Part shown: positions 2,983 through 17,728 of the stretch, piece after piece | How the letters are laid out: every line of letters starts with the position of its first letter | Numbering within the stretch: position 1 is the stretch's first letter | Source: Methylocapsa sp. | Lineage (GTDB): Bacteria; Pseudomonadota; Alphaproteobacteria; Rhizobiales; Beijerinckiaceae | Direction: 5' to 3' | Assembly (NCBI GenBank): GCA_003162995.1 | Contig: PLUZ01000359.1 | Coordinates: 164 to 18,209, forward strand | DNA: 18,046 nt | Made by a program: the position numbers and the translations under genes | Notes under the pieces: model-generated | Database searches by the model: none | What the model was told of the DNA's origin: nothing | The model's input: the letters and a program-made list of their open reading frames with translations, nothing else

Positions 2983-4335
2983 ATGATGCTATGCCACGAT
3001 ATACTCATATTGATCCAATGCGGCCGAGAAGCGGCAAGCAAGAGCCAACCGCCCGATGCCAGACCTGCCAATCGCCTCGTGAACTCATCTGGACCGCCGA
3101 AGACGCACGTGCAAAAGACCCACAGCCTCGCCGACTATGCAACGAAGCGCTTCCGGCTTGCGGGGAAGGCGTACCTCGACCTCGGAGACCCTTTTTTCGC
3201 GCCGATCGACACGTTGCGGCGTGAAGCCGAGTTAAATGGCCGGCGTTTCGTCAGTTTCGCCAACTACGATTATCTGGGGCTGGCGTCCCACCCCGTGGTT
3301 AAAGCGGCGGCGGCCGTGGCGCTGGAGAAGTTTGGAATCGGTGCGCTTGGTTCCCGCCTCGTCGGAGGCCAGCGCTCCTCGCATCGCAGTTTGGAGACCG
3401 GCCTCGCCAAATTCCTCGGAGTCGAGGACGCTTTGACCCTGGTCAGCGGCTATCTCACCAATGTGACGACGATTTCGCATATCCTTGGATCGCACGATGC
3501 GCTTTTCATCGATGAATTGTCGCATAACAGCATTGTCAGCGGAGCCAAGGGCACCTCGGCAGAAACCATCATTTTCCGCCACAACGATCTCGACCATCTC
3601 GATTTCCTTTTGCGCGAAAAGCGCGCCAATTACCGGAATGCTCTCGTCGTCGCCGAGGGCCTCTACAGCATGGATGGCGACGTCGCCGATCTTGCCGGAC
3701 TTGTCGAACTCAAGGAGCGTCACAAGGCGTGGCTCTTGATCGACGAGGCCCATTCGCTCGGAGTGCTCGGAAGCGAGGGACGCGGCCTGTGGGAACATGC
3801 CGGTGTCGATCCGCAACAAATCGATCTCATTATCGGGACTTTGTCGAAGACTCTGTGCTCTTGCGGCGGTTTCGTCGCCGGCAAGGAAGCGGTGATCTCT
3901 TGGTTGCGCTATACGCTCCCCGGATTTGTGTATAGCGTCGGCCTCTCGCCCGTTATATCGGCTGCGGCGGAGACGGCTTTGCAATTGATGCAGCAAGAGA
4001 CTTGGCGGATTGAGCGGTTGCGCCAAAACGCCGAACTCTTCGTGGATCTCGCGCATGATGTGGGGCTTGATACGGGACCTGCCATCGGGCGTGGCGTCGT
4101 GCCGATCCTATTCTCCGACAGCCATGAGACTCTGGCTGCGTCCAGTCATTTGATGGAACACGGCTATTATGTGCCGCCGATCATTCAAATCGGGGTGCCG
4201 AAAGACCAACCGCGTCTGCGTTTTTTCATCTCGGCTCTGCACACCGAGGCGGAGATTAGGGGTGTGACGGAACTCTTGGCGAAGCGGACGACCCAGCGTG
4301 AAGCACCCGCTCGTTCGCTGACCGAGGCTGGCTGA
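2983..4335 (+). CDS. spt: Alpha-oxoamine synthase, probable serine palmitoyltransferase
   Basis: This is a fold-type I PLP enzyme of the alpha-oxoamine synthase family, which condenses an amino acid with an acyl thioester and releases CO2. Core residues are visible: FANYDYLGL (92-100), GIGALGSRLVGGQ, His181 in FIDELSHNSI, which stacks on PLP in relatives, the DEAHS box (Asp254, His257) and the PLP lysine Lys289 in GTLSKTL. The C-terminal lid domain ends with a conserved RLRFFISALHT. Family members include serine palmitoyltransferase, BioF, KBL and ALAS. Serine palmitoyltransferase is preferred because of the nearby acyltransferase, DES1-like desaturase and ACP; amino-acid specificity cannot be read from sequence. 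The first roughly 45 residues look non-homologous, so the real start may be GTG at 3079 or 3109, giving about 410 residues. A sigma70-like promoter lies upstream. It is followed after 117 bp by the GNAT acyltransferase gene. Confidence 0.75.
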   Translation: MMLCHDILILIQCGREAASKSQPPDARPANRLVNSSGPPKTHVQKTHSLADYATKRFRLAGKAYLDLGDPFFAPIDTLRREAELNGRRFVSFANYDYLGLASHPVVKAAAAVALEKFGIGALGSRLVGGQRSSHRSLETGLAKFLGVEDALTLVSGYLTNVTTISHILGSHDALFIDELSHNSIVSGAKGTSAETIIFRHNDLDHLDFLLREKRANYRNALVVAEGLYSMDGDVADLAGLVELKERHKAWLLIDEAHSLGVLGSEGRGLWEHAGVDPQQIDLIIGTLSKTLCSCGGFVAGKEAVISWLRYTLPGFVYSVGLSPVISAAAETALQLMQQETWRIERLRQNAELFVDLAHDVGLDTGPAIGRGVVPILFSDSHETLAASSHLMEHGYYVPPIIQIGVPKDQPRLRFFISALHTEAEIRGVTELLAKRTTQREAPARSLTEAG

Positions 4336-4452: not shown

Positions 4453-5607
4453 ATGAGCGAGAACAAAGATAAGATCGAGATCATTCCGGCGAACGGGCTG
4501 CGAAACTTTCTCGCTTTTTGCCAGGTCCCCCGGCTCCTTTATAAGGGCCAACCCGGCTTCGCGCCTCCCCTCGATGCCGAGCGCTGGACCATGTTCGCGC
4601 ACAAGCTCAATCCGCATTTCAAGCTCGTCCGATCGCAAACCTGGCTAGCCCGCAAGAATGGCAAGCTCGCCGGGCGGATTTCCGCCCAGATCTACAACGA
4701 AGAGTACACACCGCTTGGTGCGTCGCGGGCGCAATTTGGGTGTCTCGATGCAATTGACGACGACGCAGTTGTCGCGGCCCTGACGCGAGCCGCCGAAGAT
4801 TGGCTCCGCCAACAGGGCGCCACGCTCATGCATGGGCCTTTCTCGCCGTCCATCAACGCCGAGATGGGGCTGCTCGTCCAGGGCTTCGAAGCCACGCCCA
4901 TGGTGTTCATGCCCTGGAATCCACCCTATTTGGTCGAGTCCTTGGAGCGCCTAGGCTACACCAAAGCGCGCGACGTTATTTCCTACCGTTACGATGTCGG
5001 CGAAAAAGACCGGCAGGCCAGCCCAAGCATTATGGAGCGGCCAGAATGGCGCAAGAGGCTCAATATCCGGACCCTCGATCTTAAGAACATGGCCAAGGAA
5101 GCGCAGATCATCGTCGATATATTCAACGATGCCTGGAGCGAAAATTGGGGCTTTGTTCCGTTCACGCTCGCCGAATTCATGTCGAGCGCCGACGGGCTCA
5201 AATTGGTGATGCCGCCGGAAGGCGGCTTCATGGTCGAACTCGACGGCGAGCCGCAGGCCTTCGGCGTTATTCTGCCGAACCTGCATGAGATAACCGCCGA
5301 TCTCGGCGGCCGACTGTTGCCTTTCGGCCTGCCGCGCGTCATCTCGCGGATTAGGAACCATACCTTTGTGTCCGGGCGGCTCGCGCTCTTTGGTATTCGC
5401 CGCGCCTTGCACCGCAAGGCCGCGGGCGGCGCGGTCATTCTGGCTTTTATCGAGGAAATGCGCCAACGCAGCAAATCGAGTTCATTCGAACACGTCGAAT
5501 TCGGCTGGGTTTTGGAGGATAATTTCGGCATGCGCCGGCCGATCGAGCTCTCCGGTGCGAAAATCGATAAGGTCCACCGAGTCTATGAGAAAAGTCTCGC
5601 GGCTTGA
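4453..5607 (+). CDS. GNAT-fold N-acyltransferase, candidate bacterial ceramide synthase
   Basis: The 384-residue protein belongs to a group of long GNAT-fold proteins often labelled hypothetical. The group pattern is visible: an N-terminal block with PRLLYKGQPGFAPPLDAER and LNPHFK (residues about 28 to 56), ARKNGKLAGRISAQI, FGCLDA, then GPFSPSINAEMGLLVQGFE, a late helix AFIEEMRQRS and the closing HVEFGWVLEDNFGMRRPIEL with VHRVYEKSL. A GNAT-family protein in the Caulobacter sphingolipid locus has been reported as the bacterial ceramide synthase, which acylates the amine of the long-chain base. Position between an spt-like gene and a sphingolipid-type desaturase suggests the same job here; I have not aligned the two. 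It is soluble or peripheral, with no membrane segment. The ATG at 4453 begins a natural N terminus. It lies in the same direction as spt and the desaturase gene. Confidence 0.6.
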   Translation: MSENKDKIEIIPANGLRNFLAFCQVPRLLYKGQPGFAPPLDAERWTMFAHKLNPHFKLVRSQTWLARKNGKLAGRISAQIYNEEYTPLGASRAQFGCLDAIDDDAVVAALTRAAEDWLRQQGATLMHGPFSPSINAEMGLLVQGFEATPMVFMPWNPPYLVESLERLGYTKARDVISYRYDVGEKDRQASPSIMERPEWRKRLNIRTLDLKNMAKEAQIIVDIFNDAWSENWGFVPFTLAEFMSSADGLKLVMPPEGGFMVELDGEPQAFGVILPNLHEITADLGGRLLPFGLPRVISRIRNHTFVSGRLALFGIRRALHRKAAGGAVILAFIEEMRQRSKSSSFEHVEFGWVLEDNFGMRRPIELSGAKIDKVHRVYEKSLAA

Positions 5608-5745: not shown

Positions 5746-6756
5746 ATGAGCTTTCAAGCTTTTGATCGCAGTAACATCGAATCGCGTGCACCTCAGACTT
5801 CTTTCATTCCCACCACCTTGCCGCGCCCGCATCCTTTGCGCCGGCGCGCGATCTTGGCAGCGCATCCGGAAGTCGCAAGTTTGATCGGGCAGGACCCGGT
5901 AACGGCTGCCATCACCCTCGCGACCGTGATTGGACAGACCCTGATCGCGGCAGGTCTCGGCTCTCTCGGCCTTGAATATTGGTGGGTGGCCTTGCTTGCC
6001 GCCTTTTGCATCGGCGCCTTCGCCAATCATGCGATGTTCGTCGTCATCCACGACGCGACCCACAATTGCATCTTCAAAGCCAATGCCCTGAACAAATGGG
6101 CCGCAATTCTCGCTGATTTGCCGAACACTTTTCCATCCGCGATGGGATTTCGCTGCTACCACATGAAGCACCATTCGCATCTCGGAGATTATGATTTCGA
6201 TGCCGATTTGCCGAGCCGTTGGGAAGCGCGCCTATTTGGCAACAGCGCGCTTGGCAAGGCGGCTTGGATGTTCCTGTTCCCTGTGCTGCAGCTCACCCGT
6301 CTTGGCCGGCTGAAAGGCACGGTGCCGATGTGGAGCCGCTGGACACTCATCAATGGTGTCTGCGTTTTCCTCTACGATCTCGCCATTTTCCTGTGCTTCG
6401 GTCCGAATGCGCTTCTCTATCTCTTCGCGTCATTCTGGTTTTCGGTCGGCGGCTTGCATCCGCTCGCCGCACGCTGGATCCAGGAGCATTTTACACAAGA
6501 TCCGGCGCAGGAGACGTTCGATTATTACGGACCCTTGAATCTCATCGCGCTCAACATCGGCTATCACAACGAGCATCATGATTTTCCGGACGTGCCCTGG
6601 TCACGGCTGCCGCAGCTAAAGCAGATGGCACCGGAGTTTTACGCCGGTCTGAAAACACATAAATCGTGGGGCGGACTGTTGCTCAAATTCATCCTCGAAC
6701 CGCAATTCACTTTGTACACGCGGGTCGATCGCAGCGCCGGCCGGAAGTCTGGTTAA
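5746..6756 (+). CDS. Sphingolipid delta-4 desaturase-like protein (DES1 family)
   Basis: This membrane di-iron desaturase is strikingly like eukaryotic DES1, which puts the 4,5-trans double bond into dihydroceramide. The N terminus carries the DES1-type block PHPLRRRAILAAHPEVASLI (residues 28-47), comparable to the human 'ADRRREILAKYPEIKSLM' segment. All three histidine boxes are present: HDATH (102-106), HMKHH (139-143) and HNEHH (274-278) within NIGYHNEHHDFPDVPWSRLP. GGLHPLAARWIQEHF (235-249) and DYYGPLNLIALN (259-270) also match DES1 positions. Hydrophobic stretches at about 53-76, 78-101, 173-185 and 201-236 fit the membrane fold. The length, 336 residues, compares with 323 in human DES1. 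The gene follows the spt-like and acyltransferase genes, supporting a sphingolipid substrate. Delta-4 regiochemistry is inferred; a C4-hydroxylase activity, known for DES2 relatives, is an alternative. Confidence 0.85.
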   Translation: MSFQAFDRSNIESRAPQTSFIPTTLPRPHPLRRRAILAAHPEVASLIGQDPVTAAITLATVIGQTLIAAGLGSLGLEYWWVALLAAFCIGAFANHAMFVVIHDATHNCIFKANALNKWAAILADLPNTFPSAMGFRCYHMKHHSHLGDYDFDADLPSRWEARLFGNSALGKAAWMFLFPVLQLTRLGRLKGTVPMWSRWTLINGVCVFLYDLAIFLCFGPNALLYLFASFWFSVGGLHPLAARWIQEHFTQDPAQETFDYYGPLNLIALNIGYHNEHHDFPDVPWSRLPQLKQMAPEFYAGLKTHKSWGGLLLKFILEPQFTLYTRVDRSAGRKSG

Positions 6757-8078
6757 CCGGCCTCGTTAAGCTGATCCGTCGCCGGCAAACCCTCCAGAAA
6801 AGGCGTCGTTTTGGGTGTGCGCTTCCAGGTTTCGGAAGCCCCAAAAACCGTCTTCAGAATGGAGGGTGCATTTGAGAGGCTGACATAGATCATCAAGGGG
6901 ATCAGCGAAGCGAGGGTCGCGAGATAGCGCCAAAACGAGCCTCGCCGCAAGATTACATAAGGAACGAGCGTCATGCCAACCCCGATGATCAGGACCAAGG
7001 CCGTGATCGTCCCGATGCCCACCAGATAGGGGGCGAGATCGCCGCCCCGGATGACCGCGCAGAGAGCCAAGGAAAGGCAGGCGAGCGCAACGCACGGATA
7101 AAACGTCTGGATGAGGATCAGGAAACTCGCCGACAGCTTTCGCCAAATCGGCCATTTGGCCGTCCAAACCTCGCTGAGGAGCTTGCGGGCCACCTGCACA
7201 AAGCCGTTCGACCAGCGTCTTTGTTGCACCTGCCAATGCGAAACTTTTTCGGGAACGAGACCGGGCACGGCCGGCTCCATCGCAAAAATTCCGTGCCATC
7301 CGGCGATTTCGGCGCGAATGGTAAGATCGAGATCCTCGCAGAGCGAATAGCCCGCCCAGCCGCCAGCCGCCTCGATGGCCGCGCGGCGCCAGACCCCGCC
7401 GGTGCCGTTGAATTGAAATAGCCAGCCGGCACGAAAGCGCGTTGCCTGCTCAATGACGAAATGCGCATCGAACATCAGGCCCTGAGCGCGGGTCAGCCAA
7501 TTGGTCCGGTAGTTTGCGAATTCGCAACGCGATTGCACGAAACTCGCGCTTGGATCGGCGATCAAAGCGGGAACGACCGCCCGAAGCCAATTCGCTGGCG
7601 GCCGGAAATCGGCGTCGAGAACCGCGACAAAAGGGGCATCCGACTGAGCGAGACCGGCGGCCAAGGCGCCCGCTTTGTAGCCACGGCGATCCATCCGGTG
7701 CAGGTGTGAAATAAGATAGCCTTGCGCATGCAATTCACGGACGACAGCGTTGGCAATCACGGTCGTTTCGTCCGTGCTGTCATCGAGAAGCTGAATATGC
7801 AGCCTGTCTCGCGGCCAATCCAGCGCGGCGGCCGATCTCAAGCAATCCGCAACCATCGCAGGTTCGTTGAAAACCGGGATTTGCACCAGAATAAGCGGGA
7901 GACTGGCTTCGCTCAGAACCGCTGTGGAAAGGGGCTTGCCAAGCAACCTGCCGGTGCTTTGCTCAAAAATATTGATCCCGATCAGAATCAGAAAGCCGCC
8001 ACCGACAAACAGAAGCCCGCAGAAGGCGGCGAGCAAGCCGATCTCGCATCCGATTCTGAAGAGTTCCAGAAAACTCAA
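6753..8078 (-). CDS. Membrane GT2 glycosyltransferase, CslA/ceramide glucosyltransferase-like
   Basis: This inverting GT2 transferase has an N-terminal membrane helix (about 11-36), a cytosolic catalytic domain and a C-terminal group of helices (about 316-345, 350-376 and 386-403). Catalytic motifs are clear: Asp99-Asp100 in QLLDDSTDET, the metal-binding DAD (155-157), the acceptor-side ED (248-249) and QQRRW (285-289). The sequence is close in feel to plant CslA mannan synthases (LVQIPVFNE, GYKAGAL, FQFNGTGGVWR) and to processive enzymes of family GT21 type. Such enzymes glycosylate ceramide or diacylglycerol or build beta-glycans. Near the desaturase and ACP operon, a glycosphingolipid role is inferred. 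The start codon is TTG at 8078, with GGGGG about nine bases upstream. It probably has its own promoter, since a hairpin separates it from the upstream reductase gene. Confidence 0.75.
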   Translation of the reverse strand: MSFLELFRIGCEIGLLAAFCGLLFVGGGFLILIGINIFEQSTGRLLGKPLSTAVLSEASLPLILVQIPVFNEPAMVADCLRSAAALDWPRDRLHIQLLDDSTDETTVIANAVVRELHAQGYLISHLHRMDRRGYKAGALAAGLAQSDAPFVAVLDADFRPPANWLRAVVPALIADPSASFVQSRCEFANYRTNWLTRAQGLMFDAHFVIEQATRFRAGWLFQFNGTGGVWRRAAIEAAGGWAGYSLCEDLDLTIRAEIAGWHGIFAMEPAVPGLVPEKVSHWQVQQRRWSNGFVQVARKLLSEVWTAKWPIWRKLSASFLILIQTFYPCVALACLSLALCAVIRGGDLAPYLVGIGTITALVLIIGVGMTLVPYVILRRGSFWRYLATLASLIPLMIYVSLSNAPSILKTVFGASETWKRTPKTTPFLEGLPATDQLNEAG

Positions 8079-8423
8079 GCGCCAACCCCCGTAACACAGT
8101 CACTTCCGGTCTGCTGCCCTGCCCATCGCATGGGCTTGAGACTAAAAAGCGTCTTTCAACTTACGAAAGCGCCTTTAATCCTCCTGAGCCCGGCATTCGG
8201 CCCGGACTGTCTCTCGCGACGGTCAGGCGGCTGGCTGGTGCAAGCAACGGAACCCCTCATACGAGCCACAAGAATGGACTCTACTTTAACGTTGAACCCC
8301 AAAAGCACGGTTTCAACAACAAACAAATTGCAACAAATTGTTTCAGGAATTGAGTGATTGGGGTGATTAACTTTAAGAATGAGTGAAGGATCTTCCGCGG
8401 GAACGGAAGGTCATAAGGAATCG
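8079..8423. other. Gap between GT2 and reductase genes
   Basis: The 345-bp gap contains no convincing gene. It holds a terminator-like hairpin after the reductase gene (8389-8412), an inverted repeat GTTGAACC (8291-8298) and GG-T-TTCAAC (8309-8317) with one bulged base, and directly beside that a short direct repeat AACAAATTG/CAACAAATTG (8322-8340). These AT-rich elements may be the promoter or operator zone of the GT2 gene, but no convincing -35/-10 pair was found. Confidence 0.45.
8389..8412 (-). terminator. Hairpin terminator after the reductase gene
   Basis: GATCTTCCG (8389-8397) pairs with CGGAAGGTC (8404-8412) over nine positions, one of them a G-U pair in RNA, around a six-base loop. 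It lies 11 bases beyond the reductase stop. It lacks a long U-tract but suits the end of the five-gene operon. Confidence 0.5.
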
Positions 8424-9212
8424 TTAACGAATACGCTCTTCTGTTTGCGGAATGTTAACCCTGAAACGCGCCATAACTTTATCCACAAGCCGAATTGGCA
8501 GGATGCGGGAGACGCGCGCCAGCAAATACAGAGATCTCGGAAAAGCGATGACCGCCCTGCCCCGTTCGAGACCTCGTTGAATGAGGAGCGCTGCCTCACT
8601 GCCGGTCATTTCGAGCGGTTTTATGGCATCAATGCTATCGTTCAGCGGGGTCTTCACAAAGCCGGGGATAATCAGACTGACTCGCACGCCGCTGGCCTCG
8701 ATGCGGCCGCGCAAGGATTCGCTATAGGCGTGGACCGCCGCCTTCGTTGCGCAATAAGACGGCGCATAGGGCAACCCGCGCAAACCCGCGATCGAGCCAA
8801 TGAAGGCAATTTGGCCAGCTCCGCGCCCGCACATCGGTGCGATCAAGGGTTCAACCGTGTTTAAGACACCGATAAGGTTAACGCCAATAATGGCGCGGAC
8901 CGCCTGCGGGTCCTCGGCGATGTCTCCGGGGGCGAGGCCCGTTGTGATGCCCGCATTGGCAATGACGAGATCGAAGGGACGCCGTGCGTCGGCGGCCTTG
9001 ATCCATTCCGACATAGCATCTTGATCGCGCACATCCAATTGGCCGAGGCTGACGTCGGCGCCTTGCGCGCGGGCGGCGGCGGCAACATCCTCCAGCCGTT
9101 CACGGTCGCGCCCGATCAAAGACAGGGACACCCCTTGGCGCGCGTAAACCAGCGCGAGCGCACGGCCAATACCGCTCGATGCGCCGGTGATAAGGATGGA
9201 GCGTGGCTGCAT
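8424..9212 (-). CDS. Short-chain dehydrogenase/reductase, possible keto-sphinganine or ketoacyl-ACP reductase
   Basis: This is a classical SDR NAD(P)H oxidoreductase of 262 residues. The cofactor loop is TGASSGIG (9-16), followed by NAG (86-88), Asn112, the catalytic Ser140, and Tyr153 and Lys157 in SYCATK. GRDRER at 34-39 puts an arginine after strand 2, favouring NADPH. The C-terminal FPRSLYLLARVSRILP and LVDKVMARF resemble SDRs acting on lipid substrates and could form a membrane-facing helix. As the last gene of the ACP-synthase-dehydratase operon it may be the ketoacyl-ACP reductase of a dedicated elongation cycle, or the reductase that turns a 3-keto long-chain base or 3-keto ceramide into the alcohol. 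Sequence alone cannot decide. The start at 9212 is one base after the previous stop, so it is translationally coupled. Confidence 0.8.
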   Translation of the reverse strand: MQPRSILITGASSGIGRALALVYARQGVSLSLIGRDRERLEDVAAAARAQGADVSLGQLDVRDQDAMSEWIKAADARRPFDLVIANAGITTGLAPGDIAEDPQAVRAIIGVNLIGVLNTVEPLIAPMCGRGAGQIAFIGSIAGLRGLPYAPSYCATKAAVHAYSESLRGRIEASGVRVSLIIPGFVKTPLNDSIDAIKPLEMTGSEAALLIQRGLERGRAVIAFPRSLYLLARVSRILPIRLVDKVMARFRVNIPQTEERIR

Positions 9213-9213
9213 T

Positions 9214-9663
9214 TCAGCTGATTAGGTTTGCGTTTTTGTGCTGAACGGCCGCTTCCGCCAAAATCACAAGGTCATCGCTCCGGCCGCGCGCGGTCAACCG
9301 GAGAATGAGTTCTGGTTTTGGGACCCAAGCGCTGCGCAGGACACGGCCCATTACGCGAATGCCATCGCCTGCCAGCACCGGCCGCAGAAACTTAGCCGAA
9401 AGCCGCGAGATGAACAGATCCCGCCGCCACCCCATGATCAAGGGTTCGAAACAGGAGAGCATCAGCATGCCATGCACAGGCGGCCCGGCGAGACCTGCCG
9501 CCTTTGCTGCTTCCGGGTCGAGATGCAGGGGATTGTCGTCGCCGGAAACGGCCGCATAACGCGCGAGCGCTTCCTGCGCGAAAGGCCCGAAGTTTTGGGC
9601 GCCGATCTCATCGCCGGCCCTTGGCCAGTCCGGCGGCGGCGCCCCTGGCGCGGCGTCGATCAT
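9214..9663 (-). CDS. MaoC-like hot-dog hydratase/dehydratase
   Basis: This 149-residue protein carries the (R)-specific hydratase signature of the MaoC family: YAAVSGDDNPLHLDPEAAK with the catalytic Asp and His, followed by GPPVHGMLML. Such proteins dehydrate or hydrate 3-hydroxyacyl thioesters. The ATG at 9663 was chosen because it overlaps the stop of the preceding gene in an ATGA junction; a start at 9720 would add 19 residues inside the upstream gene. The following reductase gene begins one base after its stop. Next to the FAS1-like protein encoded just upstream, it may form a two-subunit dehydratase like mycobacterial HadAB, where one subunit holds the catalytic residues and the other shapes the acyl tunnel. 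That pairing is inferred. Confidence 0.8.
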   Translation of the reverse strand: MIDAAPGAPPPDWPRAGDEIGAQNFGPFAQEALARYAAVSGDDNPLHLDPEAAKAAGLAGPPVHGMLMLSCFEPLIMGWRRDLFISRLSAKFLRPVLAGDGIRVMGRVLRSAWVPKPELILRLTARGRSDDLVILAEAAVQHKNANLIS

Positions 9664-10112
9664 ATGTCCGTTTCCGCGACAAGCCGCACAATCCGCAAGA
9701 CGGTTTCGAGACGGGCGCAAATCTCCCCACCTGCGGTGGAAACCACCATTTTCAAAATCAGGCGCGGCGGCTTTTCACTGGCCTCGATCTCGACGTCGAG
9801 GACATAATCGGTGTTAATGTGCAGGCTTCTTTCATAGGCAAAGCTCTGCGACTCGTGAACCGGCAGAAAGCCTTCGCCGCCGGTCAATTGCAAGATCAAG
9901 CCGCGAATCGCTGGAAGCGCAAGCCAGCGGAAAGGGAAGGTGAGAGGGACGAAATCGCCGGTCCCGATGCCTCCCGTCTCGCGCAAAAACCCAGCGACCT
10001 CGCCAGGTTCAGTCCTAACCTCGATCGCGGGGAGGCGAACCGGTGCATTCTCGCCTGGCTCCGGCGCCAAGCCGGAGGCGGCCGCCGCTTGCGCAGGATC
10101 GCACGCGGTCAT
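9660..10112 (-). CDS. FAS1-like dehydratase (MaoC N-terminal hot-dog) protein
   Basis: This 150-residue protein looks like a single hot-dog domain of the FAS1-like dehydratase or MaoC N-terminal type (PF13452-like). Visible features are DFVPLTFPFRW near 53-63, VHESQSFAYERSLHINTDYVLDVEIE near 85-110 and the terminal strand ICARLETVLRIV. It lacks the hydratase signature SGDDNPLH seen in its neighbour, so on its own it may be non-catalytic. Both ends are ATGA overlaps, with the ketoacyl synthase upstream and the MaoC gene downstream, which implies coordinated translation. The best guess is the substrate-binding half of a heteromeric 3-hydroxyacyl-ACP dehydratase. A thioesterase-like hot-dog role is the main alternative; similarity is modest by eye. 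Confidence 0.6.
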   Translation of the reverse strand: MTACDPAQAAAASGLAPEPGENAPVRLPAIEVRTEPGEVAGFLRETGGIGTGDFVPLTFPFRWLALPAIRGLILQLTGGEGFLPVHESQSFAYERSLHINTDYVLDVEIEASEKPPRLILKMVVSTAGGEICARLETVLRIVRLVAETDI

Positions 10113-11332
10113 GCCGCGACGGCGCGCCGGACGATGAGGCTTGCATTAATCCCTCCAAAGGCGAAGGAATTGGTTAGGGCCGTCCTTATCGGCATGGGAC
10201 GCGCCTCGTTTGGCACCGCATCGACGGGGCATTTGGCGTCGGCCTCGCGCCAGTTGATGGTTGGCGGCGCGATATTCTCGCGAACGGCACCAATCGTCAC
10301 GACAAGCTCGAGCGCTCCGGCAGCTCCCAGCGCATGCCCATGAATGGGTTTGGTCGAGGACACCGGGAGCTTTGCCAACCGATCGCCGAAGACGATCCCT
10401 AAAGCTTCCGATTCTGTGGCGTCGTTCGCCGTCGTCCCAGTCCCATGCGCATTGACGTAATCGATTTCCCCCGCTTCAACATTGGCGTCGGTGAGGGCGT
10501 TGCGCATGCATGCGGCGGCTCCCTGCGCATCGGGCCGCACGGGATCCTTGGCGTCGGCCGAGGTTCCATAGCCGGCGATTTCAACAAGCGCTTCAGCACC
10601 CCGGGCGCGGGCGTGTTCCACTTCTTCGAGGACAAAGACCGCGGAGCCCGCGCCGAGGATCATGCCGTTGCGGCCTTTGGAAAAAGGCCGGCAGGCGTCC
10701 GGCGTGAGCACCCGCAGCGCTTCCCAGGCCAGCATCGCGCTATTGGTAACGCAGTCCTCCGTTCCGCCGACAATGGCACGGTCGACGAGCCCGGAGCGGA
10801 TGAGATGCACACCGAGTCCGATTGCCTGAGTAGCCGAGGAGCAGGCGCTCGAAACCGCGAAGCACGGCCCGGTCGATCCATAGCGGATGCTCAGCATCGA
10901 GGGGCAGGCGCTGGGAATGAGACGCGGGACCGTCAAGGGATCCGGACGCCCTTGCTCGACCAGCGTCAGATAAAGCCCGTTTTCCAAAGTATGCATGCCG
11001 CCAACCCCGGTCCCGATGATGGTGGCGGTGCGCGGACCCAACGGTTTGGCGGAGGTGAGCCCAGCCTGGGCGATCGCTTCGTCGGCGGCCACAAGCAAAT
11101 ATTGGGTAACCGGATCGCAAAAGGGCAATACGTTAGATGTAAGATACGCAGCCGGATCGAAATCCTGGACTTGAGCGGAAATCCTTATGCGGCCCCGGTA
11201 GGGCCTCGCGAAGCGCGTCTCACCGACACAGGAACGGCCATCGCGCGCGGCTTCCCAAAGGGCCGGTGCGCCGATTCCTGCAGCGGAAACAGCGCCCATA
11301 CCGGTGACGACAATACGCCGCGCGCCCGCCAT
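10109..11332 (-). CDS. Beta-ketoacyl-ACP synthase (FabF/KAS II type)
   Basis: A 407-residue condensing enzyme that extends acyl chains on ACP by two carbons from malonyl-ACP. The catalytic set is complete: Cys164 in VSSACSSATQA, His296 in VNAHGTGTTANDATES, Lys328 in SSTK and His333 in IHGHALGAAGALE. The N-terminal VVTGMGAVSAAGIG and C-terminal NSFAFGGINASLI are standard for the family. As catalytic Cys, His and His are all kept, this is an active elongating synthase rather than a chain-length factor. The ATG at 11332 abuts the ACP stop directly (TGA then ATG), and its own stop overlaps the next gene. Dedicated pairing with the preceding ACP suggests a specialised acyl chain rather than housekeeping fatty-acid synthesis. 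Substrate chain length cannot be read. Confidence 0.88.
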   Translation of the reverse strand: MAGARRIVVTGMGAVSAAGIGAPALWEAARDGRSCVGETRFARPYRGRIRISAQVQDFDPAAYLTSNVLPFCDPVTQYLLVAADEAIAQAGLTSAKPLGPRTATIIGTGVGGMHTLENGLYLTLVEQGRPDPLTVPRLIPSACPSMLSIRYGSTGPCFAVSSACSSATQAIGLGVHLIRSGLVDRAIVGGTEDCVTNSAMLAWEALRVLTPDACRPFSKGRNGMILGAGSAVFVLEEVEHARARGAEALVEIAGYGTSADAKDPVRPDAQGAAACMRNALTDANVEAGEIDYVNAHGTGTTANDATESEALGIVFGDRLAKLPVSSTKPIHGHALGAAGALELVVTIGAVRENIAPPTINWREADAKCPVDAVPNEARPMPIRTALTNSFAFGGINASLIVRRAVAA

Positions 11333-11602
11333 TCAGTTTTTTTCTTTGATGATGTAGGCGGCGATGGCGTCAATTAAATCGCGAATGTTCTTTGCCTCAT
11401 GGAAAGGGCCATCCATCGGAATATAGACGTCGAATTTTTCCTCGATGGCCGTCAAAATCATCACGATGTCGATCGATTTCAAATCCAGGCTTTCAATCGT
11501 CGCATCCAAAGTTGCTTTCTCGCGGTCAACCATTCCTTCCTTGACGATCACGTCGATGATCTGATTGGCAAGCTCGGTATGATCGAGGGCCTTCGTTTCC
11601 AC
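11333..11602 (-). CDS. Specialised acyl carrier protein
   Basis: An 89-residue acidic carrier protein. The 4'-phosphopantetheine serine is most likely Ser43 in DLKSIDIVMIL, which aligns with the DSLD block of E. coli ACP; the following TAIEEKFDVYIP matches ALEEEFDTEIP. The usual aspartate before the serine is replaced by lysine, which is unusual for a holo-ACP-synthase site and hints at a specialised carrier. It is the first gene of the coupled operon with the ketoacyl synthase, dehydratase pieces and reductase. The GTG start at 11602 is supported by an AAGGAG site six bases upstream. It may feed acyl-ACP to the spt-like enzyme, as a dedicated ACP does in the Caulobacter sphingolipid pathway; that link is inferred. 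It is not like the rhizobial lipid A carrier AcpXL as I recall it. Confidence 0.85.
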   Translation of the reverse strand: METKALDHTELANQIIDVIVKEGMVDREKATLDATIESLDLKSIDIVMILTAIEEKFDVYIPMDGPFHEAKNIRDLIDAIAAYIIKEKN

Positions 11603-16456: not shown

Positions 16457-16840
16457 GAGCGGGCGATCGGCTTTCGGTATGAGCTGACTTTGCTGAATTT
16501 AGACAAATGATCGCGCGGCGCTAGTCAATTCGGGTTTACTACGGGCAGTTCAAACCCGCCGTCTGCCGGGCGCAGCTCGACGGTCCGTTCTGACGGTCTT
16601 GAGCAGGGCTGCCCCGGCCAATAGCGCATTCCTGGCCGAATTCATTTTGGATAGTTACGGAAATCGCCAAAGCCGCCATGTTTCCCGAGTCTGGATAACC
16701 GCCCTCGTTCGCGCGACATATGTCATGACACCTTTTCTTCTGGCTGTATTGCAAATCAGTCTTGGTGGCGGCATTGTATTTGCTCCGGGTATTCTCGCCG
16801 GCGCCGCTTGACGCGCCGCGGGGAGCAGCGAATTGGCCGC
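16457..16840. other. Divergent intergenic region between DUF1223 and metallophosphoesterase genes
   Basis: The 384-bp gap holds the inverted repeat CGGGTTT/AAACCCG (16531-16558), a direct repeat GACGGTC at 16579-16585 and 16592-16598, and a doubtful small reading frame at 16725-16811. Promoters for both flanking genes should be here, but no good -35/-10 pair stands out. Confidence 0.45.
16725..16811 (+). CDS. Possible 28-residue membrane peptide
   Basis: A short frame from the ATG at 16725 encodes a very hydrophobic peptide, MTPFLLAVLQISLGGGIVF then APGILAGAA, which would form one membrane helix with a triple-glycine. The frame stays open upstream to a TTG at 16599, and its stop lies 29 bases before the GTG of the phosphoesterase gene. 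No ribosome site is visible. It could be a real small protein or chance; I have no family match. Confidence 0.25.
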   Translation: MTPFLLAVLQISLGGGIVFAPGILAGAA

Positions 16841-17728
16841 GTGAAATTTCTTCTTGCTCATTTGTCCGATACGCACCTCGGACCCTTGCCGAGTCCGCGC
16901 CGGCGCGAGCTCATCGGCAAACGTGTCACCGGCTATTTGAATTGGACACGCTCCCGCTACCGTATCCACGACATGGGGGTGCTCGCCCAAATCGTCGCCG
17001 ATATGAAGGCTCATCATCCAAGCCACGTGGCAATGACCGGGGATATCTCGAACATCGGTCTACCGGCTGAGTTCCAGCTTGCCAGGAATTGGCTGGAAAC
17101 CTTGGGCGCTTCCGAGGATGTCAGCTTCGTGCCCGGCAATCACGATGCCTATGTGCGCGGCTCCTTGCCCGATCTTGCCCGCACCTTCGCACCCTGGACA
17201 ACAGGCGAGACGTGCGATGGCGATCAATTCCCTTATCTGCGGGTCCGCGGCGAGGTTGCCCTGATCGGTTTGTCGTCAGGTGTTCCGACCCCCTTGTTCA
17301 TTGCTTCGGGATTTTTAGGCAAGCGCCAATTGCAAGCTGCCGAAGAACTTCTCACCGAAACCGCCCGGCGCGGTCTTGTCCGCGTCATCATGCTGCACCA
17401 TCCGCCGCAAGCCACCGCCTCGCACCTTGGGCGCGGCCTTGTGGATGCACGCGGTTTCGAGGCTCTGATCCGCCGCGCCGGTGCCGAGCTTATCATCCAC
17501 GGTCATAATCATAAGGTTAGCTTGACGCGAATGGAGGGTTCGCGCGGTCTCGTGCCGGTCGTCGGCGTGCCCTCGGCGTCGGTCATACGCGGCAGACCGC
17601 ATCATCGCGCCGGCTACCATCTTTTCGAGATTTCCGGCAGCGGGACCAATTGCAAGATCGCTGCCCGCGCGAGAGGACTTTTGCCGGGAACCGCCATCGT
17701 CGGCGATCTCGGCCCGCTGGTCCTGTGA
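16841..17728 (+). CDS. Calcineurin-like metallophosphoesterase
   Basis: A 295-residue two-metal phosphoesterase with the complete class III cyclic-nucleotide-phosphodiesterase-like motif set: SDTHLG (DxH), MTGDIS (GD), PGNHDAY (GNHD), LHHPP (His) and HGHNH (GHxH) near residue 215-220. This matches the CpdA-type superfamily, whose members cleave cAMP or other phosphodiesters; the substrate here is unknown. Because lipid genes lie upstream, phospholipid-related hydrolysis is conceivable, but over 8 kb separates them. The GTG at 16841 was preferred, since it begins at KFLLAHLSD like relatives; a TTG at 16808 would add 11 residues. GGGAG at 16820-16824 is somewhat far (16 bases) from the GTG. No signal peptide, so cytosolic. 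Confidence 0.85.
   Translation: MKFLLAHLSDTHLGPLPSPRRRELIGKRVTGYLNWTRSRYRIHDMGVLAQIVADMKAHHPSHVAMTGDISNIGLPAEFQLARNWLETLGASEDVSFVPGNHDAYVRGSLPDLARTFAPWTTGETCDGDQFPYLRVRGEVALIGLSSGVPTPLFIASGFLGKRQLQAAEELLTETARRGLVRVIMLHHPPQATASHLGRGLVDARGFEALIRRAGAELIIHGHNHKVSLTRMEGSRGLVPVVGVPSASVIRGRPHHRAGYHLFEISGSGTNCKIAARARGLLPGTAIVGDLGPLVL

Follow-up and report, generated by a model that had tools for sequence, protein, structure and literature searches.

A DES1-family desaturase gene conserved beside alpha-oxoamine synthase and N-acyltransferase genes in Methylocapsa and relatives: a candidate bacterial route to delta-4-unsaturated ceramides

DES1 is the animal and plant enzyme that converts dihydroceramide to ceramide, and sphingosine-type lipids are usually thought of as eukaryotic. 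A stretch of 18,046 nucleotides from Methylocapsa sp., analysed as a whole and referred to here as the window, raises the question of whether a bacterium may encode such an enzyme together with the means of making its substrate. A first-pass annotation had read one gene of the window as a DES1-like sphingolipid desaturase lying beside spt-like and N-acyltransferase genes, and had proposed a host that makes delta-4-unsaturated or 4-hydroxy ceramides; as a whole, this interpretation is partly supported by the analysis reported here. The host genome (4.36 Mb in 584 contigs, 88.6% complete) belongs to a family some of whose members oxidise methane. Coordinates of the main features are given in Table 1.

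Table 1. Position of the three-gene set and of the diagnostic segments of the desaturase within the window.
Feature	Position	Strand	Remarks
Alpha-oxoamine synthase (AOS), SPT-like, divergent	2983..4335	+	First gene of trio; Pfam Aminotran_1_2, 6e-46
GNAT-type N-acyltransferase, bCerS kind	4453..5607	+	Second gene of trio; Pfam Acetyltransf_1 only at cut-off
DES1-type sphingolipid delta-4 desaturase (DES), predicted	5746..6756	+	Third gene of trio; Pfam, alignments, trees, structure model
Lipid_DES (PF08557) N-terminal segment, residues 20-51	5803..5898	+	35.1 bits, cut-off 23
Third histidine box GYHNEHHDFP, residues 272-281	6559..6588	+	DES1-type N at residue 275

The DES gene opens with an ATG and runs for 336 codons (336 aa) with no internal stop. 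FA_desaturase (PF00487) was matched at 110.3 bits (Pfam cut-off 29.7), and the DES1-type N-terminal block noticed in the first-pass annotation corresponds to the Pfam Lipid_DES segment, present in 117 of the 120 homologues listed. In an NCBIfam search, all models stayed below cut-off. The three histidine boxes (H102-x3-H106, H139-x2-H142-H143 and H274-x2-H277-H278) and the GYHNEHHDFP context are present as described, together with further histidines at H95, H238 and H248, the last two lying between boxes; in an alignment of 54 bacterial and plant DES sequences every one of them is invariant but for H277, a nearly invariant position. The structure model (pLDDT 88.5) has its fold matches among di-iron membrane enzymes, and the protein is accordingly modelled as having a membrane di-iron desaturase/hydroxylase fold; it differs from the membrane di-iron enzymes AlkB and SCD1, with 13-16% identity, and a PDB search by sequence gave no significant match to any chain.

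Eukaryotic reference records, found in two bait-sequence searches, include named vertebrate DES1 and DES2 and plant DES1-like proteins. The likeness to human DES1 noted in the first-pass annotation holds against these named records: identity with the window DES is 33-34% for the two DES1 compared, from a monkey (Saimiri, P0122; 34% over 320 aa) and a butterflyfish, and 35-37% for the DES2 of shark, hagfish and lamprey, in alignments that span the whole length. With eukaryotic DES1/DEGS1 and plant delta-4 desaturases it has in common this whole-length alignment, the Lipid_DES block, the three histidine boxes and the HP...EH, YYGPxN and GYHNEHHDFP motifs; it stands apart by the 33-37% identity and by a separate bacterial clade (see below). 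Local alignment scores against two vertebrate (one DES1, one DES2) and two plant DES lay 85-98 SD above those of 200 shuffles, thus excluding a resemblance by chance. The five vertebrate DES scored 184-198 bits, whereas other desaturases fetched from Pseudomonadota scored at most 96 bits, in line with the initial view that this is not an ordinary bacterial acyl desaturase. Many such proteins already bear the automatic JGI name sphingolipid delta-4 desaturase. Judged by its sequence, the protein is a DES1-family membrane desaturase, as had been observed.

Trees were built with plants and vertebrates as the eukaryotic DES sample. A first tree of 77 rows, with some outgroup branches of 4-6 changes per site, was rebuilt at 46 rows. 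In the 46-row tree, eukaryotic DES form one clade (100/96) and bacterial DES another (85/89), with members from Beijerinckiaceae, Methylocystis-type genera, Bacteroidota and Verrucomicrobiota; the window DES groups with the Beijerinckiaceae and Methylocystis-type rows (100/99). Three rows (L104, L105 and L107) float near the base, and in the best tree L105 and L107 break the bacterial-plus-eukaryotic DES clade, which can be forced at a cost of 0.44 lnL and is not rejected (p-AU 0.324). A third tree, leaving these three out, recovered eukaryotic DES (98/97) and bacterial DES (76/91), the latter grouping with the former against five other desaturases; the outgroup branch is very long in both of these trees. 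These trees place the window DES among bacterial DES, in a clade next to that of the sampled eukaryotic DES and separate from it. Phylogeny had been suggested as a check when the gene was annotated: the protein falls in a bacterial DES clade and appears to stand apart from ordinary acyl desaturases, a position within the eukaryotic DES not being recovered.

In a phylum-wide draw of 398 genomes, four, its own included, encode a protein at least 45% identical to the window DES over at least 300 residues, the remaining matches being at most 43% identical, or short. The DES-like protein of genome G337 (L104/L181) is 45% identical and has V in box 3, perhaps with another function; AOS and GNAT family members are absent from its 19-kb region. 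A viral collection gave a single stretch with a pattern match, and no stretch in it encoded a relative.

The three genes lie on one strand, with 117 bases between AOS and GNAT and 138 bases between GNAT and DES. Their conservation was followed in the best 80 of the 573 stretches that a genome scan found to encode a relative, including 20 from Bacteroidota and 3 from Verrucomicrobiota by title. Outside these two phyla, AOS-GNAT-DES were found in the same order and on the same strand in 52 of 57 loci; the exceptions are three loci whose contig ends too soon, L011, in which DES is inverted relative to AOS and GNAT, and L013 (Beijerinckia mobilis), in which DES has neither AOS nor GNAT in its flanks. 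Named hosts in this set are Methylocapsa, Methylocella, Beijerinckia, Methylocystis and Methylosinus, and the closest named relative of the trio is that of the Beijerinckiaceae MAG USCa_AHI (L002; AOS 85%, GNAT 89%, DES 83%). In all three Verrucomicrobiota loci DES is followed by AOS on the same strand, and in two of them an FA2H-type gene follows AOS. The Bacteroidota loci have no window-like AOS near DES; an SPT-type match of at least 478 bits occurs in 16 of the 20 DES-bearing Bacteroidota genomes (one of the 20 over the SPT cut-off of 640), a second group of SPT-type matches in that search reaching at most 357 bits. The four genomes lacking such a match include G652, with a match in two pieces, and G662, with none, and it is also absent from the three Verrucomicrobiota and three other genomes of the same search. 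The sphingolipid-type gene setting of DES is conserved and not accidental.

Other genes of the window were inspected as well. Within 692-2605 lie an OlsB-type ornithine-lipid gene on the minus strand (345 bits, over the cut-off of 320) and an OlsA-type one on the plus strand (206 bits, below the cut-off of 300). A minus-strand block at 6753-11602 holds GT2, SDR and MaoC genes, a 150-aa protein with no Pfam match, a FabF-like KAS and an 89-aa carrier-like protein, and could be a separate acyl-chain module; KAS at more than 55% identity was found in 13 of the 57 loci. The GT2 (6753-8078) looks cellulose-synthase-like and was left out of the pathway, and the SDR (8424-9212), considered as ketoreductase, gave general SDR matches only. 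The carrier-like gene (11333-11602) has a GC content of 0.467, against 0.591 for the window. The product of 16808-17728 (plus strand), which looks phosphoesterase-like by eye, was grouped with family 7, seen in 9 of 20 fetched regions, most of which were chosen for canonical sphingolipid genes.

The AOS keeps the PLP-lysine motif GTLSKT and the DEAH motif. An N-terminal stretch is absent from its relatives, and the true start may be the GTG at 3109. It scored below cut-off with all NCBIfam SPT equivalogs (295 against 500, 287 against 640 and 218 against 670 bits), as well as with bioF (346 bits) and KBL; a true BioF is encoded elsewhere in the host genome (437 bits, cut-off 426). Its best PDB matches are SPT (3a2b/8guh, 1.4e-62), with BioF/KBL-type chains close behind. 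In the AOS tree, in which BioF and KBL have one row each and L002, L004 and L046 are left out, Beijerinckiaceae-type and Methylocystis-type AOS group together (98/99) and then with L216 (98/95). A clade of these AOS with canonical SPT and L167 alone was rejected (p-AU 0.0156), and one that also admits L216 and the Verrucomicrobiota AOS was not (p-AU 0.337). By score and by tree, the AOS is not a canonical SPT. Because it lies below all SPT cut-offs and its grouping with canonical SPT alone is rejected, serine is a substrate that we only infer. L216 (249-1619) is itself an orphan AOS that shares about 40% identity with the window AOS; its genome, G551, also has a canonical SPT and the GNAT. Passages of PMC12134224 describe PfSgaB, an AOS that has SPT activity but is not part of the classical SPT pathway, and so show that sphingoid bases can also come from a non-classical AOS; PfSgaB, set beside the window AOS by description, differs in being PKS-linked.

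GNAT homologues were found in 25 genomes besides its own, that is in 26 of 190 of the class, at 30-41% identity along most of the protein, save for one match that is weak and partial. A high SPT score (at least 430 bits, the next match having 263) was found in 24 of the 190 genomes, and 23 of these 24 have the GNAT. Exceptions to the pairing are the window's own genome, G513 (a different SPT-type AOS beside the GNAT), G643 (a weak match) and G542 (a partial SPT and no GNAT). A ligase-like gene, a CerR-like gene and SPT recur in this order in the fetched regions, the GNAT lying near them or several kilobases away; the ligase-like family owes its name to size and position, and one member of the CerR-like family was domain-tested. 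This matches the order of Caulobacter CC_1165-CC_1162 plus CC_1154, as given in passages of PMC11324152. The GNAT thus appears to be of the bCerS type, its likeness to CC_1154 being suggested by cluster order, and this strengthens the sphingolipid reading. The setting claimed by the first-pass annotation stands in that it is conserved, sphingolipid-type and includes a bCerS-type GNAT; its spt-like gene has become an AOS below every SPT cut-off. In contrast to the eukaryotic systems, the window DES is encoded with this GNAT and not with a eukaryotic-type ceramide synthase.

Compared with the Caulobacter-type pathway (aasR-cerR-acpR-spt and cerS/bCerS, in passages of PMC11324152 and PMC11087976), the window set has the bCerS-type N-acyltransferase in common and the DES gene set a PF04116 hydroxylase; it differs by an AOS outside the canonical SPT clade and by the addition of DES and GT21. 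No aasR- or cerR-type match at 1e-6 was found in loci L001-L100, and the host genome, at 88.6% completeness, showed no clear CerR orthologue (best 72.7 bits, 30%). Passages of the same two papers leave a long-chain-base desaturase unmentioned for this pathway, and the Caulobacter 'desaturase' CC_0202 is said there to hydroxylate the amide-linked acyl chain. Co-occurrence of SPT with ACP and acyl-CoA synthetase genes in alpha-, beta- and gamma-Proteobacteria is stated in the abstract of PMC9386255. A hydroxylase family (family 6) occurs in 10 of 20 fetched regions; its one tested member is PF04116, and it is 24-30% identical to the genes beside DES. Since such a hydroxylase is also present in canonical clusters without DES, it is not peculiar to the DES gene set.

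In Methylocystis-type loci, a PF04116 hydroxylase gene directly follows DES, with yeast Scs7 as its only PDB match (1.9e-24); the Verrucomicrobiota FA2H-type hydroxylase matches Scs7 at 4.1e-33. These genes share PF04116 and the Scs7 match with FA2H/Scs7 ceramide fatty-acid 2-hydroxylases and differ in being short (about 215-265 aa). Methylocapsa acidiphila has a GT21 gene flanked by DES on one side and the FA2H-type hydroxylase on the other, and in the window's genome hydroxylase and GT21 are side by side on contig C568, apart from that of the trio. Genome G011, of the same genus, has a hydroxylase 100% identical to that of M. acidiphila B2. Among 99 related genomes, Lipid_DES was found in 25, across 11 of 83 genera. 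Strong FA2H-type matches (at least 57% identity, the rest at most 37%) occur in 22 of these 25 and in 0 of the 74 other relatives; strong GT21 matches (at least 316 bits, next 234) show the same counts, and 21 genomes have both. The hydroxylase is missing in G004, G077 and G095, the GT21 in G006, G077 and G095. Fisher's test of co-occurrence with DES gave p 4e-19 with relatedness ignored, 14 of the 25 being of one genus, the window's own included. The Methylocapsa GT21 orthologue matches the PDB ceramide glucosyltransferase at 2.7e-38 and does not reach the HpnI equivalog cut-off (157 against 310), and may be ceramide-specific; a second GT21-type fragment of the host, HpnI-like only by lower identity, matches the same PDB enzyme at 7.4e-35, so that ceramide specificity rests on linkage. 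The GT21 frame on C568 (L191:4006-5262) has a short N patch and a near-duplicated stretch, probably an assembly join.

Taken together, the results directly support assignment to the DES1 family (from sequence, trees and fold), conservation of the trio, and co-occurrence of the hydroxylase and GT21. We consider it probable that the DES1-family enzyme modifies the long-chain base of a ceramide that the products of the two genes upstream of it synthesise. The gene set is best read as a bacterial pathway to ceramides that are delta-4-unsaturated and probably also 2-hydroxylated and glycosylated, for which we infer the substrates, regiochemistry, order of steps and final lipid as follows. The AOS would join an amino acid, most likely serine, to an acyl thioester by condensation, and the bCerS-type GNAT would N-acylate the resulting 3-keto long-chain base; a putative reductase would reduce the 3-keto group, and DES, as a membrane di-iron enzyme, would insert a trans-4 double bond, giving a sphingosine-type ceramide. 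This product would then become a 2-hydroxy, glycosylated ceramide through the FA2H/Scs7-type hydroxylase and the GT21 encoded elsewhere in the genome.

A DES2-like enzyme would act on the same long-chain base as a C4-hydroxylase, producing phytoceramide, or would be bifunctional. It would be of the same family, vertebrate DES2 sequences are as close to the window protein as DES1 or slightly closer, and some JGI records are named 'sphingolipid 4-desaturase/C4-monooxygenase'. Against it stands the fourth residue of box 3, GYH[N]EHHD, which is N in the window DES, in 103 of 104 fetched loci (91 distinct sequences) and in 120 of 121 of the records P0001-P0121 (one unmatched). Among 120 vertebrate-search records listed, 22 DES1 and 31 DES2 rows were picked by hand: N is found in all 22 named DES1, and either M (28) or V (3) in the 31 named DES2. 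The 67 rows left out have 42 N, 21 M and 4 T; they include seven further DES1-named rows with N, nine further DES2-named rows with M, and 16 named DES1-like, of which 14 have N, one M (lamprey, grouping with DES2 in the 46-row tree) and one T (lungfish). The plant-search matches listed have 117 N, 2 V and 1 unmatched. As N is shared with vertebrate DES1 and not with DES2, it favours desaturation over C4-hydroxylation, by a single residue and as a correlation found here, neither an established criterion nor proof; we regard C4-hydroxylation as unlikely.

A desaturase of some other lipid, whether an acyl chain, an ornithine lipid or a non-serine AOS product, would agree with the Ols-type genes at 692-2605 and with an AOS outside canonical SPT. 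However, window-like OlsB and OlsA lie beside the trio in L002 and L003 only among L001-L100 (many with short flanks), whereas the trio itself is kept in most loci; the scores of the other desaturases fetched from the phylum are far lower, and hydroxylase and GT21 co-occur with DES. Ornithine-lipid desaturation was set aside on these grounds, the Ols genes being rarely beside a trio that is conserved, and action on another lipid in general appears quite improbable. That the gene is a eukaryotic DES1 acquired recently, or that eukaryotic DNA contaminates the assembly, is suggested by the likeness to animal and plant DES1 but is very hard to credit given a neighbourhood kept in cultured strains with names and also in genomes of a single contig (G001 and G008 among them), a GC content (0.564 for DES, 0.591 for the window) that does not indicate recent import, and a sampled eukaryotic DES clade that excludes all bacterial DES (98/97 in the tree without L104, L105 and L107).

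Several observations count against ceramide desaturation by the trio: the non-canonical AOS, the host without a clear CerR, the loci without aasR- or cerR-type matches, locus L013, the Bacteroidota DES without a nearby window-like AOS, PF04116 in canonical clusters free of DES, and the breaking of the joint clade by L105 and L107. We found no lipid data for trio-bearing hosts and, in titles, abstract openings and passages of the open-licence PMC papers listed, no report of sphingolipids of trio-bearing methanotrophs or of a bacterial delta-4 sphingolipid desaturase. Relative to those papers, the bacterial DES branch and its gene set, a DES1-, FA2H- and GT21-type tailoring of a bacterial ceramide pathway, would be new.

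On the reading of DES as a ceramide desaturase, a wider picture can be proposed tentatively, as a possibility: Beijerinckiaceae and relatives, including cultured methanotrophs, may make sphingosine-based 2-hydroxylated glucosylceramides through a bCerS and a non-canonical AOS that feed DES1-, FA2H- and GT21-type enzymes, and the bacterial DES clade may predate or parallel eukaryotic DES, in which case the origin of the 'eukaryotic' double bond of sphingosine would lie in bacteria. Should the predicted activity be borne out, delta-4-unsaturated ceramides would not be a eukaryotic hallmark and would be made by methanotrophs and some Bacteroidota. This would bear on lipid biomarkers and on the origin of eukaryotic sphingolipids, and would provide a compact bacterial source of a ceramide desaturase, hydroxylase and glycosyltransferase.
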